DNA from: an uncultured Synergistales bacterium
GTDB lineage: Bacteria; Synergistota; Synergistia; Synergistales; Aminobacteriaceae
Reading direction: 5' to 3'
Length of the DNA: 53,716 nt
NCBI GenBank assembly: GCA_905233565.1
Contig: CAJOCL010000009.1
Span: 1,054 to 54,769 of the forward strand
Positions 46,006-53,716 of this stretch are shown in pieces. Position numbers and translations under genes: made by a program. The notes under the pieces are model-generated. The model worked only from the letters and a program-made list of their open reading frames with translations, was not told the DNA's origin and did no database searches. Within the stretch, counting starts at the first letter, position 1. Each line of letters starts with the position of its first letter.

Positions 46006-46950
46006 TTACTTTTCGGCTTTAATCTTTTTGATTTTTTCGTCTATTGATGTTACTTTTTCAGGGTCATTTGATGACACTCCTAAATCTTCTGAAAGGCTCA
46101 TGATATATGTTATATCTGCTGAAATTTTATTCAGTTTTTCTTTTGCCCTGTCTCTTTCGGGCATCAGGAGATTCAAGTCTTCAAGGTCTGACCGCGTTAT
46201 ATTGCCTCCTGCCCGTGTTATCTCTTTTATTTTGTTGAACGCGTCATTATATTCATTGCTGACGGCTTCTAATTCGTTTTTCATGTTCCATAAAATGTCG
46301 TATATATTCCAGCGTACTGATTCATAGTCCGTGCTTGTCTCATAATTATTATTATTGACCGTATCACGGGGATAATTCGCAAAGATTATCATTGCTGAAA
46401 AAATAAAAATCAGCACTGCTGCAAAAATATATTTTTTGACTTTCTTTTTTTTAGGAGATTTAACGGGAATTATTTTATTTGATGATTTTTCCCATTTAAG
46501 ATTACTGCCTGACGGAAGGGGTGATATTTTATTGTCATAATCTTTCAGGGCTTCGGTGAATTTGTAAAAATCAAATATTATTTTGTCCTCATCGAATGCT
46601 TTAACATCCAGGCAGGAACGCATGATTTTTTCAATCTCTTCCCAACCGTTCACAATGTGCATGAATATTTTTCCTGCATCATCTTCATCTGCATTCATAA
46701 CAAACGTAAGGCGTACGCGTGTACCTGAATAATCTTTCAGCCCCGTCTGAATGCCCCCTGACATTACAAAGAATTTTCCTTCTGATTTTATGAGCAGGGC
46801 AAAAGGGTTTTCAGTTCCTTTTATTCCTGAAGATTTCTTGATGTAATTGAAAAATTTTTCATCATTATCATCAGCGTAATCACCGTTATTTTTTCTGAGA
46901 ACGTAATCTTTTCGCTTTGTTCTCGTCAAAAACAGAAAATTACCGGACAT
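46006..46950 (-). CDS. Single-pass membrane protein of the GTPase cassette, unknown family
   Basis: About 314 residues, not recognised. A cytosolic N-terminal domain (~1-150, FALLIKSEGKFFVMSGG, a mixed alpha/beta pattern), a Lys-rich stretch (VKSPKKKKVKK) and one transmembrane helix (IFAAVLIFIFSAMIIFANY, ~185-203), then a helical, coiled-coil-like ~110-residue tail outside or in the cytosol. The start ATG 46950 overlaps the previous gene and has GGAG seven bases before; the frame opens earlier but without RBS. It is clearly one operon with the two P-loop genes. Confidence 0.7.
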   Translation of the reverse strand: MSGNFLFLTRTKRKDYVLRKNNGDYADDNDEKFFNYIKKSSGIKGTENPFALLIKSEGKFFVMSGGIQTGLKDYSGTRVRLTFVMNADEDDAGKIFMHIVNGWEEIEKIMRSCLDVKAFDEDKIIFDFYKFTEALKDYDNKISPLPSGSNLKWEKSSNKIIPVKSPKKKKVKKYIFAAVLIFIFSAMIIFANYPRDTVNNNNYETSTDYESVRWNIYDILWNMKNELEAVSNEYNDAFNKIKEITRAGGNITRSDLEDLNLLMPERDRAKEKLNKISADITYIMSLSEDLGVSSNDPEKVTSIDEKIKKIKAEK

Positions 46951-47875
46951 TTTCATTCTCCGCAGGAAGTCCGAGAAGTTCGCGCCCTGCAATAATTTCC
47001 GCACCTCTTATATTCTGTTTTATACCACTGCGAATTTCTGATGTTATGCTGTCTAAATTTCCGTTCCCGAAAACATTATCGAAAAATGACATTATTCTTG
47101 AGCGTCTTTTCTTGTACTGTTCAATCATGAAGCTCATTGCATAGCGTAAAGGCTGATCCGTATCTTCCGGCCTGAAAACGTTGCTGACTTTCCCGAATAT
47201 CTGTATCGGCGTACCGTCTCTTATTTCAACACGCCTCAACTGTACATTTCCCATAGTTTTTACGGGCAGAACGGCTATTGCGATTTTTCCGTAATAAGGC
47301 GATCTGCTGTCAGCAAGGCTTATGGTATCGGCAAAATCTTTTTTGACTGTATCGCGGAGAAGTTCGCCGTATTTCCCGTTAGTCAGGTATTTTTCGCATT
47401 TAACGGGGACTAGGAGAATCAATTTTCCGCCCCCGTCATGAGTCATGCTGTTTCTGATGACGTATTCTATATTGCTTATGCCCGCCCAGGAATTTATCAC
47501 GGCAATGATTACTGATGAGTTTTTCGCCGTCTCAGATACTTTCTTGAACTGAGGAGCATTCAAATTAAGCCAGTCTCCGGGAAAATCAAAAAATCTTAAC
47601 GATATATTTTTACGGCTTCCCTTCAGGGTAAACGGGTATTGCTTTTCGTCGTCAGTACCTTCAATTCCTCCGCTGAATATAATATCGTTTTCGCCTTCCG
47701 CGTCATCTTTTAGCTTGTTGTATGCCTCGTTCAATTTCCCGAACATTTCGGGGTCTCCTGATTGGAATGAGCTGGGCATTACGCGCCCGAAATACTCATT
47801 CATGCAGGCAAGGAGCGTTGTTTTTCCGCACCTTGAGGGGCCCAGAACCGTAAAATTAAGTTCGTTTGTATTCAT
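46940..47875 (-). CDS. P-loop GTPase-like protein (cassette paralogue 1)
   Basis: 311 residues. Walker A G12-PSRCGKT19, a G3-like DFPGDW, and then LLVPVKCEKY where a G4 (NKxD) would be expected, so guanine specificity is uncertain. C-terminal blocks IAVLPVKTMG, FRPED, LRYAMSFM and IIAGRELLGLP recur in the next gene, showing that the two arose by duplication. No transmembrane segment. Cytosolic. Possible GTPase or ATPase switch that acts with the dynamin-like protein; the family resembles large TRAFAC-type GTPases but I cannot name it. Confidence 0.75.
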   Translation of the reverse strand: MNTNELNFTVLGPSRCGKTTLLACMNEYFGRVMPSSFQSGDPEMFGKLNEAYNKLKDDAEGENDIIFSGGIEGTDDEKQYPFTLKGSRKNISLRFFDFPGDWLNLNAPQFKKVSETAKNSSVIIAVINSWAGISNIEYVIRNSMTHDGGGKLILLVPVKCEKYLTNGKYGELLRDTVKKDFADTISLADSRSPYYGKIAIAVLPVKTMGNVQLRRVEIRDGTPIQIFGKVSNVFRPEDTDQPLRYAMSFMIEQYKKRRSRIMSFFDNVFGNGNLDSITSEIRSGIKQNIRGAEIIAGRELLGLPAENENVR

Positions 47876-47898
47876 AAAATTTTCCTCCTGAAATTATC

Positions 47899-49158
47899 CT
47901 AAAAAGGCCATAATGTCCATCTTTTAGGCTTTTTCTTTTCGCTGTCAAGTTCCTGCTTCAAGCTGCTTATTTGCTGCTGCAGGCGTTCAATTTCTTTTGT
48001 CTGCTGATTTATATGTTCCTGAAGGCTTCTGAGCTGTTTTTCAAGATTAGATTTCTGCCCCTTCAAGACAGTAATTTGAGTAAGTGCTTTATTCAGTTCG
48101 TTGAGTGCGTCTTCTTCCGAATTTCTTGCTTCAGTGATTTCACGCTGAGCCCTGCTTTGATTCTCTTCGTTCTGCCTGACGCTTTCTGCTATTGTTTCCT
48201 GAAGTTCGGCTGCTGTTTTCTGCGCGTTCCTGCCCTGCCTCATGAAGATGTAACCTGTTATTATCAAAACGGCAAGCAAAGAAACAACGGCAACAATCTT
48301 CATTGCAGTATTTTTCTTCGGGGCTTCGGGTTCAAGAAGTTCACGTCCGCAGAGAATATCAAAACGATTATCATCAAGTACGGCATTATCTGAAATTTTT
48401 CGGACGGATTGAATGTCATTTGAAAAAGTCCCTTCATGCAGAAGGAAATTCACGGCAAAACGCAGAATATTATCTGCAAATTCAGGCCTGAAATTAACGT
48501 TTTTGTCGCGCCTGAACTTTTCAGCCGTTATATTACCGTTTTCAATGACAAAATCATAGAATGACGCTCCGCCCATAGTATGAACTGGAATGACGGCTAT
48601 TGCGGAACGTCCCCGATATTTTGTGCGCGATAATTCTGCAAGTTCTTTGAAACTGTCAGATATTTTTGAGATTAAGGAATTATAATCACGCCTCGTATAT
48701 GCCTCGCATTTCAGCGGTACGATAATGAGCAGCTTATTTTCGTTTGAAGATTCAAGTGCCTTTTTGAATGTCCCGATTGCCTCTTTAACTCCTGATTTTT
48801 CTTCATGACCGTTCATTAATAAGGGAGTGTCAATAACTGAGACAAAAATTTTTGTGCCGTCAAAAATATCCGTATTCTCCTGAAGCATAAAATGTATATC
48901 GTTGTCCTTATCCTTCAGAAAAATATCATACTCCCACCCTTCATTATTCGATTGAGTCAGTGACGATTGAAAATCTGACCTGTTGCCTGAAGCAGTTCTC
49001 TCTAAATTTGTTAATGTTCCCGTCATTGCGTCAAAGTCCTCTGTTTCAGGAAGCCTGAAATAACCGGGCATTGAGGCATCAAGAGATTTATACATGCAGG
49101 ATATGAGCGACGACTTCCCGGAACACGGCCTCCCCGTTACGGCTATATTAATATACAC
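47899..49158 (-). CDS. P-loop protein with transmembrane helix and coiled coil (cassette paralogue 2)
   Basis: 419 residues. Walker A G9-RPCSGKS16, degenerate G3 (IDTPLL) and IIVPLKCEAY matching paralogue 1. Blocks IAVIPVHTMG, FRPEFAD, LRFAVNFL and ILCGRELLEP are shared. Then one transmembrane helix (~285-305, VAVVSLLAVLIITGYIFM) and a ~100-residue Gln/Glu-rich coiled coil ending KRWTLWPF. The NTPase is therefore cytosolic and tethered to the membrane. It lies 3 bases from the dynamin-like gene and 23 bases from paralogue 1. Confidence 0.75.
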   Translation of the reverse strand: MYINIAVTGRPCSGKSSLISCMYKSLDASMPGYFRLPETEDFDAMTGTLTNLERTASGNRSDFQSSLTQSNNEGWEYDIFLKDKDNDIHFMLQENTDIFDGTKIFVSVIDTPLLMNGHEEKSGVKEAIGTFKKALESSNENKLLIIVPLKCEAYTRRDYNSLISKISDSFKELAELSRTKYRGRSAIAVIPVHTMGGASFYDFVIENGNITAEKFRRDKNVNFRPEFADNILRFAVNFLLHEGTFSNDIQSVRKISDNAVLDDNRFDILCGRELLEPEAPKKNTAMKIVAVVSLLAVLIITGYIFMRQGRNAQKTAAELQETIAESVRQNEENQSRAQREITEARNSEEDALNELNKALTQITVLKGQKSNLEKQLRSLQEHINQQTKEIERLQQQISSLKQELDSEKKKPKRWTLWPF

Positions 49159-49161
49159 GAA

Positions 49162-51453
49162 TTATTCACCCTGACCCGTAAAATTGAAGTCCATGTTATC
49201 GCAAAGTGTAAGAGCTGTGCTTAAAGGTCCGCTGATTTTTGCGAATGCTTCCGATTTTGCCTGAGAATTTCCAAATTCCTCCTGCCATACATCGCCCCTT
49301 ATATATCTGTAAAGTGCGCGCCACTGAGTATCAATTTTTATCACGTTTAACGATGATGAGTCAGTGTTTCTTCTCACTAAGTCATCGACAAAATTATCGG
49401 CAGCTGCAAAAGCAAATTCATTAGGTTCCGAATAAATTTCCTCACGGTCAAGGCTTTCACGGAGCATGGCCAGCGTATCCCTGTATATTTCTATGAGCGA
49501 CATATATATACCGTCAGCACTGTTTAATATTGCTTTCCGCTGCCTTGATTCCTCTTTCATCGGATCAAGCAGGTTAAGAGCCTCACGAATCAATGGCTGT
49601 ATTCTGTTCTGGCAGGTTATGGCGGTCTGATCAAGACGTTTAAGGCCTTCAAGAATTGACGGCATTATATCCTGTTTCCCGTCCTCAATGAATGCTATTA
49701 TCTCGCTCAAAATTCCGGCTCCTTCAGATTTGAAATACATGTTTAATTTTCCGTTTTCAGCAAGAATTTTGCATAATTCCTCCTTCATTGGGATTAAAAC
49801 AACGTTCTTTAATGTTTCATCTAAATCCTGCTGCATTTTTCCGCTCAAATCAGTTCTTAACTGGTGCAGAAGATTTGTATATGCTGCTTCGGGGGAGCCT
49901 GCCCTGCGTACCATACGCCTTACGGTTTCGGGCGTAATGCTGCTGATTTTCCCGTCGTCAGCTGCGTCCTCTTCAATTTTTAATGTTCTGTTGAACTGTT
50001 CGCGCAGTTCCGTGCATGGCTCATTCTTTCTTTTCCCTAAAAATGAGTCCGGCTCAACGCTTCCGACAAGGCCATCAACTAAATCATCAAACTGTGAATC
50101 AAATAATCTGTCTAATAATTCGCTGTCCTTCTCAAAACTCTTGTTATCAGAAAAAATATTCTTTGCTCCGCTCAAAACGTCATGAAGGTTATTAACAACG
50201 TCATTCATAATGTCCTGAAGGCTTTTAGCGTATTCCCTGTCGTTGCGTTCGATATTTGCCTCAAGGAAATTCAAGGCATTGTCTATAAGATTTTCAGAAA
50301 CTTCCGATTTATTAACGCAGTCAGCAATAACTATTTTTGCCACGTGAATATCCTTGCTTCTCAGTGTCATTGCAAAATCCTGACACTGCTTTATGTTGTC
50401 ATCTCTCGAATTGTGATTGATGACCCAGAACGACCAGCGGTCAATCGGCAGCTTACGCCCTAATGCGCGTCTTGCCTGACTGTACAGGTTAATATCGCTG
50501 TCGAAAACATCATCACCCGTGCTTCTCGGCATCGTAACAAAAAACACCAAGTCAACCTGATCTGAAAGTGCCTCGATCATTCTTTCAGTGTCGCCGATTC
50601 TCGTATCACCTAAACCGGGAAGGTCTATCAGCCTTAAAGACCCTGCCTCATGATTGGGGAATTTGCAGTGTATTTCAACGCTCTCAACGGCCATGTGCCT
50701 GAAATATTCCTCGCCGGTCTCAGCGTCTTTCTGAACTACATAAAGTTTAATCTCACTTTCGGGAATTTTAGAACTTCTCCCGGTTCCTAAATATGCCTTA
50801 TACTCAAGAAGATGAGCCTGCAACTTTTTCAATTCTCCGATGTAATTGCGCATTCTAGTTTCATCTTCGACATTTTCAGTCGTAAAAGTATCTCTGTCTG
50901 GTAAAACGCAGTGCCTGAACTCAGTTAAAGTTTCAGGAATTGAAATCCCTGATTTATGACGCTGTAACTCCCTGAAATATCTTCCTACGGTGTTGTTAAT
51001 GAACTCTTCCTCGCTCAAAAAATTAACATATGCAAAGGTCTCCTGAGCGTCAGGATCGTTTATGATGTCCGAACGTACTCCGGTGCATACGGATCTGTCG
51101 CTGTCGGGGATTACTTCAGGGCTTAATCCCGTAATTGTCTGAAGGAGGCGCGATTTTCCCTGACGTGCCAGACCGATTACGGCTATATTGAGCGTGTTTC
51201 TTGATAAACGCCTGTAAATATTCGTCATATCAGCCTGAAGCTCATCAGCTTTATGAGCGTTGAAGCCCCTGAAAATTTCGCTTACTTCTCCGCGTTCATC
51301 GGCCAAAGAATCATCAGACAGTGCGGAAGAACATACGCCTTTTAATTTTATGAACTGTTCAAGAATTTTATCGAGGCTGTTTTTTGCGTCAATTATACTT
51401 TTTGCGAGGGGCTTTCTGCGCTGAATTATGCTGTTGATTTTTTCGCTGCTCAA
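49162..51453 (-). CDS. Dynamin-like GTPase
   Basis: 763 residues. After ~85 helical residues comes a G domain: G1 G94-LARQGKS101, a switch I Thr (SVCTGVRS), G3 RLIDLPGLGD (D277) and a G4-like VINHNSRDD. The remainder is a long helical stalk typical of bacterial dynamin-like proteins. No transmembrane helix seen. Bacterial dynamins remodel or tether membranes, some in phage defence. TTG start (51453) with GGAG eight bases before. First gene of the cassette, with a -10 TATAAT at 51494-51489; the flagellin gene is divergent. Confidence 0.85.
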   Translation of the reverse strand: MSSEKINSIIQRRKPLAKSIIDAKNSLDKILEQFIKLKGVCSSALSDDSLADERGEVSEIFRGFNAHKADELQADMTNIYRRLSRNTLNIAVIGLARQGKSRLLQTITGLSPEVIPDSDRSVCTGVRSDIINDPDAQETFAYVNFLSEEEFINNTVGRYFRELQRHKSGISIPETLTEFRHCVLPDRDTFTTENVEDETRMRNYIGELKKLQAHLLEYKAYLGTGRSSKIPESEIKLYVVQKDAETGEEYFRHMAVESVEIHCKFPNHEAGSLRLIDLPGLGDTRIGDTERMIEALSDQVDLVFFVTMPRSTGDDVFDSDINLYSQARRALGRKLPIDRWSFWVINHNSRDDNIKQCQDFAMTLRSKDIHVAKIVIADCVNKSEVSENLIDNALNFLEANIERNDREYAKSLQDIMNDVVNNLHDVLSGAKNIFSDNKSFEKDSELLDRLFDSQFDDLVDGLVGSVEPDSFLGKRKNEPCTELREQFNRTLKIEEDAADDGKISSITPETVRRMVRRAGSPEAAYTNLLHQLRTDLSGKMQQDLDETLKNVVLIPMKEELCKILAENGKLNMYFKSEGAGILSEIIAFIEDGKQDIMPSILEGLKRLDQTAITCQNRIQPLIREALNLLDPMKEESRQRKAILNSADGIYMSLIEIYRDTLAMLRESLDREEIYSEPNEFAFAAADNFVDDLVRRNTDSSSLNVIKIDTQWRALYRYIRGDVWQEEFGNSQAKSEAFAKISGPLSTALTLCDNMDFNFTGQGE

Positions 51454-51497: not shown

Positions 51498-51525
51498 TAA
51501 ATTCATTCCGCTAACATTCCGAAAA
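51498..51525 (+). promoter_or_regulatory. Sigma-28-like promoter of the flagellin gene
   Basis: TAAA (51498-51501), 16-base spacer, TCCGAAAA (51518-51525), close to the flagellar consensus TAAA-N15-GCCGATAA. Transcription from here would match late flagellar expression. Confidence 0.5.
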
Positions 51526-51578
51526 TAACATAAATGTTCCAAAGGATTGATTAATTTACAGGAGGTTAAAGAATTTGA

Positions 51579-53716
51579 ATGAGAATAGCGAATAATCTTT
51601 CAGCGATAACAGCCTTCAATTCGCTGAACGCAACTAACAGATCATTAAACAAGACTATTCAGGCATTATCAACGGGACTGCGTATAAATTCGGCCTCAGA
51701 TGACGCGGCGGGTTTTGCAGTCAGTGAAAAAATGCGCTCACAGATAAGCGGCCTTGATACTGCGATCAGAAATGCTCAGGACGGTATATCGCTTTTACAG
51801 ACGGCGGAGGGGGCGTTAGGTCAGGCAAATTCAATGCTCCAGAGAATGAGAGAGTTGACGGTTCAGGCAAGCAATGACACTCTGACTTCACAGGACAGGG
51901 GTTATATACAGCTTGAGATTGACGAGCTGAAAAAACAGATTGATAACATTGCGAATAATACGCAGTTCAACGAGAAGAGAATACTTGACGGCTCATCGGG
52001 GGCTTTGTGGGCAAGCAGTGATTTCAACGTCAAAGCAAAGATTAACGGCGGATTGACGTATATTGACCAGTTCGGGCAGAAAGTAAGCTCTGAAGGGAAT
52101 TACAGGATTGAGATTAAGGCAGATCCGGGACAGGCTCAGGTTCGGAAGACAAATATAATGTATCCGATAAACAAAATCGAAGAGCCTACTACAGTACGAA
52201 CCAGGAAGACGGCTAAAGTAGTTTTCTGCATTGACGTTTCAGGCTCTATGGGCAGAGAACTTCAGAAAGTCAAGGATAATATAGCGGCATTCAAGACCAA
52301 AATTGAGTCTTCAGGCGTTGACGATGTGGAAATAGGAATATGTACTTACGGGACAGGTAATGTAGACGATCCTAATTTCGTAGCATACAGATTTCCGCCC
52401 GGAACTTCACCGTACAGTGATGAAGGCTCGCTATGGTCATCGGATATAAACGAGATTACAGAACTTCTTGCTCCTATAACCGCACCGTACTCAATTGACA
52501 CATATAACTATTACGCCGTCCAGAAAGCAGCGGAAACTTACAAGGATTCTTACGGAGCTAACAGTTATATGGTTCTCGTTACGGATGTTGATCACACTAC
52601 CTATGGCGGCGCTATTTCTCCCACCGATGCAAGAATAACTTATACGGAAGACACTGTAAGGTCAGCACTCTTCGGAGATGATTCTACAGATACAGATGAC
52701 ATAAATCTGACAGTTATAGGCCCTAAAGCTAATGATGAAAGCTCAGAATTTTACTCCTTGTGCAATGAAACGGGCGGTAAAATGTTCCTGTCAGGTACAG
52801 CGTGGGGAGAAGAACTTGTTAATGATCTCGGAAAATCAATCAGCGAAGAAGTCGTAGAAGAAGTAGTAGAAGGGGAAGAAGTTGAACTTTTCCCGGCTGA
52901 TTCAAGTCATAAACTCTCAGAAATCAAGAATTTTATCTCGCCTGAAGGTACTTTCATTCTCAGCACTCCCAAGCAGATAACTCTTCATCAGGGCGGAAAA
53001 AGCGCAACTGTTACCCTTGATGCCTCTGACACTCTCGGAAGTATGGCCGAAAAACTTAACAACGCAATCGCAAAAGGATTAGGGCAGGAACGTTACACAT
53101 CAAATCACACTCACTTCGCTACGTATGTTTCAAAAGAGGAAACGGCAGACGCAACAAGCCAGGGCGCACCGGGTACGATCGTCCTGCGTTCAGTTATACC
53201 GGGCAAAGACGGCGAAATAACTCTGTCCGGCGATGATGATTTGTTGAACGTTCTCGGCCTCAACACGATTCAGGAATCCTCAGAAACAAGATTCACCGCT
53301 TCAATCTATGACGCTCACACGGGAAAGCCAAAAGCTACGGGCATTCACTTAACGGGAAACGTAATATCAGGAGTAATTCCGAATGTTGATATTGAGTTTG
53401 ACCCGCTGGCCGGAATAAGCTCAACATGGGATGAAAATTCAAAGCGATATTTCACGAAAAGCAGCGGAACTTACTCGGCTCTCCTGCACCTGAAGGACAA
53501 TTCAATAACATTTCAGACAGGTTCAAACAAGGGCGAGGATTTCACTTTACAGCTCGGTGACATATCCTGCAGTTCTCTCGGAATTTCAAACGTTAATGCA
53601 GTCTCACGAGAAACGGCTTCACGTTCAATCGGCGTAATTGACCGCGCAATCAACAAAATCTCTTCTCAGCGCGCAAAAATCGGCGCATTCATTAACGGTC
53701 TTGAACACACAATGGA
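51579..53716 (+). CDS. Flagellin with an inserted von Willebrand factor A domain, partial
   Basis: More than 712 residues; open to the window edge. N-terminal D0/D1 (1-145: MRIANNLSAITAFNSLN, STGLRINSASDDAAG, RMRELTVQASNDTLT) and C-terminal D1/D0 beginning (SIGVIDRAINKISSQRA) are typical flagellin. Between them is a vWA domain (~210-425) with MIDAS FCIDVSGSMG (D219), the Thr/Gly strand ICTYGTGN and MVLVTDVDH, plus a hook-IN-like segment (DDLLNVLGLNTIQ, YDAHTGKPKATG). AGGAGG is 13 bases before ATG. About 30-40 residues are probably missing. A flagellum made or decorated with it could bind a ligand through metal. The vWA domain shows no frame defect. Confidence 0.9.
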   Translation, partial: MRIANNLSAITAFNSLNATNRSLNKTIQALSTGLRINSASDDAAGFAVSEKMRSQISGLDTAIRNAQDGISLLQTAEGALGQANSMLQRMRELTVQASNDTLTSQDRGYIQLEIDELKKQIDNIANNTQFNEKRILDGSSGALWASSDFNVKAKINGGLTYIDQFGQKVSSEGNYRIEIKADPGQAQVRKTNIMYPINKIEEPTTVRTRKTAKVVFCIDVSGSMGRELQKVKDNIAAFKTKIESSGVDDVEIGICTYGTGNVDDPNFVAYRFPPGTSPYSDEGSLWSSDINEITELLAPITAPYSIDTYNYYAVQKAAETYKDSYGANSYMVLVTDVDHTTYGGAISPTDARITYTEDTVRSALFGDDSTDTDDINLTVIGPKANDESSEFYSLCNETGGKMFLSGTAWGEELVNDLGKSISEEVVEEVVEGEEVELFPADSSHKLSEIKNFISPEGTFILSTPKQITLHQGGKSATVTLDASDTLGSMAEKLNNAIAKGLGQERYTSNHTHFATYVSKEETADATSQGAPGTIVLRSVIPGKDGEITLSGDDDLLNVLGLNTIQESSETRFTASIYDAHTGKPKATGIHLTGNVISGVIPNVDIEFDPLAGISSTWDENSKRYFTKSSGTYSALLHLKDNSITFQTGSNKGEDFTLQLGDISCSSLGISNVNAVSRETASRSIGVIDRAINKISSQRAKIGAFINGLEHTM

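Follow-up and report, generated by a model that had tools for sequence, protein, structure and literature searches.

The window analysed here, that is, the whole stretch of 53,716 nucleotides from an uncultured Synergistales bacterium (contig CAJOCL010000009.1 of GenBank assembly GCA_905233565.1, termed G000:C9:1054-54769), terminates within a flagellin gene whose product harbors a von Willebrand factor A (vWA) domain, which raises the question of whether the gene is an intact flagellin and what such a domain would do on a flagellar filament. The source genome comprises 2.02 Mb in 34 contigs and is 96.5% complete. The gene starts with an ATG on the forward strand and occupies 51579-53716, where 712 codons lie inside the window before the contig end cuts the open reading frame. 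It is preceded on the same strand by a sigma-28-like promoter, TAAATTCATTCCGCTAACATTCCGAAAA, at 51498-51525 and by a Shine-Dalgarno motif read from the sequence (AGGAGG, 51560-51565). Of 76 regions upstream of flagellin genes, 45 contain a promoter box of this type, versus 3.9 in shuffled sequences.

The domain layout predicted originally, in which flagellin D0/D1 at the N-terminus and the beginning of its C-terminal counterpart flank a vWA domain, was borne out by Pfam. Residues 3-139 (51585-51995), which constitute the D0/D1 helices, matched Flagellin_N with an E value of 2.7e-43 and 147.8 bits against a cut-off of 26.6. The vWA domain spans residues ~210-431 (52206-52871), as delimited by Pfam, an alignment of 17 domains and a predicted structure, and is followed by a Flagellin_IN-like stretch at residues 467-495 (52977-53063), which scores below the cut-off (E 0.0048) and lies in a region also present in the plain flagellins of the same genome. 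Residues 685-712 (53631-53716) form the beginning of the C-terminal D1 helix, with a partial match to positions 2-29 of Flagellin_C, and these first 28 residues score below the cut-off because the domain is cut by the contig end. The vWA domain is inserted between D1 and the remainder of the outer domain.

The assignment of the domain itself is founded on sequence profiles as well as on fold. Residues 214-385 of the window protein reach 27.1 bits for VWA_2 (cut-off 27) and 25.3 bits for VWA (cut-off 23.8), and Pfam VWA was matched at an E value of 0.01 or better by all 17 aligned domains, 15 of which derive from flagellins. Modelled alone by AlphaFold2, the domain adopted a vWA fold with a mean pLDDT of 89.9, and these consistent matches together with the predicted fold exclude a chance call. 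Comparison by Foldseek and VIA-align 2 placed the model next to the I domains of integrin alphaM and beta3 and the bacterial structure 4fx5 (Z ~16, 12-16% identity), and the vWA-like subunits of TFIIH and COPII matched at the same level, so that function is not readable from the fold alone. The solved relatives retrieved by sequence profile include collagen VI, the thread matrix protein, SpaC, Mfa5 and integrin alpha-X. Hence, a Rossmann-type vWA fold in the window flagellin is predicted with confidence.

The metal ion-dependent adhesion site (MIDAS), which had been predicted to be intact, was found by alignment with all of its residues in place, namely D219, S221, S223, T308 and D336. The first three belong to the motif DVSGS (residues 219-223, 52233-52247), the aspartate D336 (52584-52586) lies within a VTD triplet, and T308 (52500-52502) was assigned as the MIDAS threonine from the alignment rather than from a solved structure. 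Across the 17 aligned domains, D219, S223, M224, T335 and D336 are invariant and the middle serine, S221, is nearly so. T308 is retained by the window and the related loci L021 and L022 alone, and is replaced by V, E or other residues in the more distant flagellin vWA domains, which means that the full motif is not constant and that most members of the wider family lack its threonine.

Since contig C9 terminates at the last base of the window with the reading frame still open, the truncation of the gene is attributable to the assembly and not to mutation. Over its final 72 bp, C9 overlaps exactly, and in the same frame, with the end of contig C13, and C13 carries an in-frame C-terminus with a stop codon, which scores 91 bits for Flagellin_C on C13 alone; the joined product would be ~771 aa in length. 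The 72-bp overlap sits in a flagellin repeat shared with contig C1, and the join is therefore likely but unproven. On C1, a decayed flagellin remnant (G000:C1:200589-200839, about 6590-6840 of L017) retains fragments of the N-terminal and C-terminal flagellin regions. It shares the final 99 bp of C9 and probably caused the assembly break. An edge-bound open frame and the decayed copy might suggest that the gene is merely broken or mis-assembled, a flagellin relic left at the edge of a contig, but this explanation is rejected as very improbable, given the full Flagellin_C that continues in frame on C13 and the complete single frames of the relatives L021, L026 and L041. One of them, L021 from goat duodenum, is 68% identical to the window protein and encodes Flagellin_N, vWA and Flagellin_C in one 767-aa frame, although its VWA match taken alone (20.6 bits) is slightly under the cut-off. 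A C-terminal flagellin domain disrupted beyond the window, which had been named as a result that would speak against the proposal, was thus not encountered. A model of full-length L021 (21 rows) shows long D0/D1 helices at both ends and a confident vWA domain at ~206-425, which is bounded on either side by linkers of low confidence (199-206 and 426-431); the model's pTM of 0.48 makes the relative placement of the domains unreliable.

The vWA flagellin is accompanied by three other flagellins in the source genome, located on C4 (961 aa), C19 (at least 821 aa, reaching a contig edge) and C3 (599 aa), in agreement with the expectation that plain flagellins would also be present. A fifth match to Flagellin_N, on C18, resembles FlgL and adjoins FlgK, and FlhA is encoded on C13. 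The C4 flagellin lacks a vWA domain and is 69% identical to the vWA flagellin over the N-terminal part and 47% identical over the C-terminal part, the middle being unrelated, which identifies the vWA region as a swapped outer module. Flagellin_N genes occur in all 43 genomes of the genus, with 2 to 14 in each (FlgL included) and very different lengths, so that the flagellins of the genus make up an enlarged family whose outer regions have been shuffled. The flagellin of a related species (L025:8001-10532), for instance, bears a Beta_helix_3 stretch in its outer region, a further large outer module, and no vWA. Divergent from the window flagellin, a run of four genes on the reverse strand (46006-51453) encodes a dynamin-like GTPase, two P-loop/GTPase-like proteins (one of them matching DO-GTPase2) and a fourth protein, all with Pfam matches below the cut-off; no pointers to adhesion were seen among the neighbouring genes. 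Elsewhere in the genome, a 1216-aa protein (L019:3227-6877, on G000:C17) combines an N-terminal vWA, a lipase-like alpha/beta-hydrolase stretch and a C-terminal sorting-like segment, and is probably secreted.

The distribution of vWA flagellins was surveyed by searching the vWA segment across the family (83 genomes) and the phylum (188 genomes), with matches read together with their open reading frames. They were found in 14 of the 43 species of this gut genus, some being cut by contig ends, and one neighbouring genus (G066) contains a partial vWA flagellin, while none was detected elsewhere in the phylum at E 1e-6 among the genomes searched; two further matches, L050 and L054, are non-flagellins. 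The type seen in the window, with the vWA directly after D1, is present in six species, of which L040 is counted from the place of its domain in the tree, its N-terminus lying off the contig. In the remaining species, the vWA is located near residue 400 in flagellins of about 1050-1120 aa. A frameshift divides the vWA flagellin of L022 into frames of 592 and 176 codons. Named relatives belong to Synergistaceae or uncultured Synergistales, and many originate from the rumen or gut of goat, sheep or deer. In the phylogenetic tree, the 15 flagellin vWA domains constitute one clade (100/100) apart from the three secreted vWA proteins of the genus, within which the window groups with L021 (L037 in the tree, 97/93) and with L022 (L038, 100/99). 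A recent capture from the secreted vWA proteins of the genus is not seen, as the tree, albeit with a small outgroup, separates them.

Flagellins with a vWA domain had been supposed to be an undescribed class, which has to be abandoned, because vWFA is already catalogued in Table 1 of Eckhard et al. 2017 (PMC5595980), where it ranks eighth among the hypervariable-region domains of 26,587 collected flagellins, with 21 sequences. A prior catalogue entry had also been named as a result that would count against the proposal, and it thus applies in part. Those flagellins likewise contain the vWA inside the hypervariable region, and in that table they are counted only, in contrast to the genus spread, MIDAS analysis and structure model given here. 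No functional study of vWA flagellins was found in the literature searched, whose coverage leaves out most subscription journals. As far as seen, they are therefore a catalogued, apparently uncharacterised class of which the window gene is a further member, and what is new is the spread within one genus, the single vWA clade, the conserved MIDAS core and the structure model.

Several known systems provide comparisons. Flagellinolysin (NF033876) similarly combines a functional-looking insert in the outer region with plain flagellins beside it; however, the window protein possesses no peptidase match, and the HExxH gluzincin peptidase motif is absent from its sequence. Its own membership in NF033876 was rejected, since it attains 73.6 bits against a cut-off of 205 and the best stretch, 598-701, is the shared C-terminal flagellin part. 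SpaC from Lactobacillus rhamnosus and Mfa5 of the minor fimbrium, both matched by sequence profile and SpaC also by fold, resemble the window protein in that a surface filament displays a vWA domain, whereas the filament is a pilus or fimbria in their case and the vWA here resides in a subunit of the flagellar filament. Pilus vWA subunits such as SpaC are adhesins, as the title of PDB 6m3y indicates. With the integrin I domains (alphaM, alphaX, beta3) the window vWA shares the fold (Z ~16) and a DxSxS-type metal site, a likeness of fold and motif, with no sign seen of an allosteric shape change or of any one ligand.

The control regions of some relatives contain a further element. At six loci (L022, L023, L026, L098, L101 and L115), a G8-G11 tract lies in a short, Shine-Dalgarno-led open reading frame in the interval between promoter and flagellin, and three of these flagellins (L022, L023 and L026, the latter two being near-identical relatives) carry a vWA. 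At all six, one tract length in three (G-1, G or G+1) brings the TGA of the leader into overlap with the ATGA start of the flagellin, and the other two lengths tested stop the leader early. The joint chance by shuffling is 0.002 for five sites and 0.012 with one of the two related sites dropped, modest values obtained with hand-chosen leader starts. Such leaders look like phase-variable translational coupling. Leaders that end on ATGA without a long G-tract were noticed at L021, L024 and L107, and the window's own vWA flagellin gene has no G-tract.

Many of the poly-G tracts are preceded by the heptamer TACGTAA, with the run of at least 8 G beginning some 7-18 bases after it. The pattern TACGTAA-N5-22-H-G8 occurs at 71 sites in 27 of the 43 genomes of the genus, in comparison with a single match for the reversed pattern and one match in total across 140 genomes from elsewhere in the order; examples are found around 7934-7961 of L022 (G042:C40:43447) and, in the source genome, at G000:C3:60591-60617. 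According to annotations read from translations, these sites are situated in or before varied genes, including permease-like C-termini, methyltransferase- or glycosyltransferase-like proteins and surface proteins. The reading frame of the heptamer varies between genes (YVI, VRN, LRN), which points to a role at the DNA level, and TACGTAA is thus probably a DNA-level signal that goes with poly-G tracts; the tracts marked by it are possible contingency loci. Poly-G phase variation is well known, for instance from Campylobacter (PMC8355987). No description of the TACGTAA/poly-G association emerged from a limited literature search on the related topic, in which the element itself was not named.

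The non-adhesive roles of vWA domains are numerous. The likeliest role, to which we assign a probability of roughly 0.55, is metal-dependent adhesion through MIDAS sites displayed on a mixed filament. In this proposal, the gene would encode a working flagellin. Its transcription would probably start at the sigma-28-type promoter, and the product would leave the cell through the flagellar apparatus and polymerise together with the three other flagellins, giving a filament with scattered vWA domains. The MIDAS would bind a divalent metal and thereby an acidic group of a ligand, for which the candidate sources are the mucus or epithelium of the host, fibre from plants and other microbes, and the flagellum would act as an adhesive in addition to a propeller. 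The thousands of MIDAS sites per filament that had been envisaged are an upper bound, as the vWA flagellin is one of four flagellin genes.

The same domain could instead be structural, contacting neighbouring vWA or other outer domains and tuning stiffness or waveform for swimming in a viscous gut, in which case the metal would stabilise the domain or the contact. In enteric and soil bacteria, flagellin outer domains are known to form dimers that build sheaths or screw-like surfaces with effects on motility, and such bacteria commonly inhabit the relatively viscous surroundings of intestine and soil (PMC8931119), a setting that suits a genus derived largely from ruminant guts and endowed with many large flagellins. 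We nevertheless consider this account unlikely, given a MIDAS core kept beyond apparent packing needs, the flexible-looking linkers predicted around the vWA in the L021 model and the restriction of the domain to 14 of 43 species. That patchy distribution, along with the numerous Flagellin_N genes per genome, their open frames of very different lengths and the switching suggested by the G-tract leaders, would suit an antigenic variant, in which outer modules are shuffled within an expanded family against host immunity or phages and no particular ligand is involved; yet the core MIDAS residues are invariant over the 15 flagellin vWA domains, whose identity to the window domain falls to 23%, and we regard such a variant as distinctly improbable. 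The conservation of the MIDAS accordingly favours ligand binding over both alternatives, without proving it.

An extension of the adhesion proposal, which we advance tentatively, is that the vWA flagellins are switchable adhesive subunits. Their MIDAS would recognise a particular ligand on the host or on fibre, and slippage of the poly-G tract, in a leader that overlaps the flagellin start with its stop, would toggle their expression in several species. The tract would belong to the genus-wide class marked by TACGTAA on its upstream side, an element conserved at the DNA level irrespective of reading frame.

Before the protease was recognized, only structural and adhesive natural functions were known for the hypervariable region, according to the discussion of PMC5595980. 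If binding at the metal site proves true, the flagellum itself would act as a multivalent adhesin whose repeated binding unit is an integrin-type module, and the vWA would join the proteolytic insert as the second functional type of inserted outer domain. The adhesion proposal could be addressed with a single recombinant domain. Meanwhile, the family offers natural comparisons with and without the domain, and perhaps between its on and off states, inside one genus of the ruminant gut.
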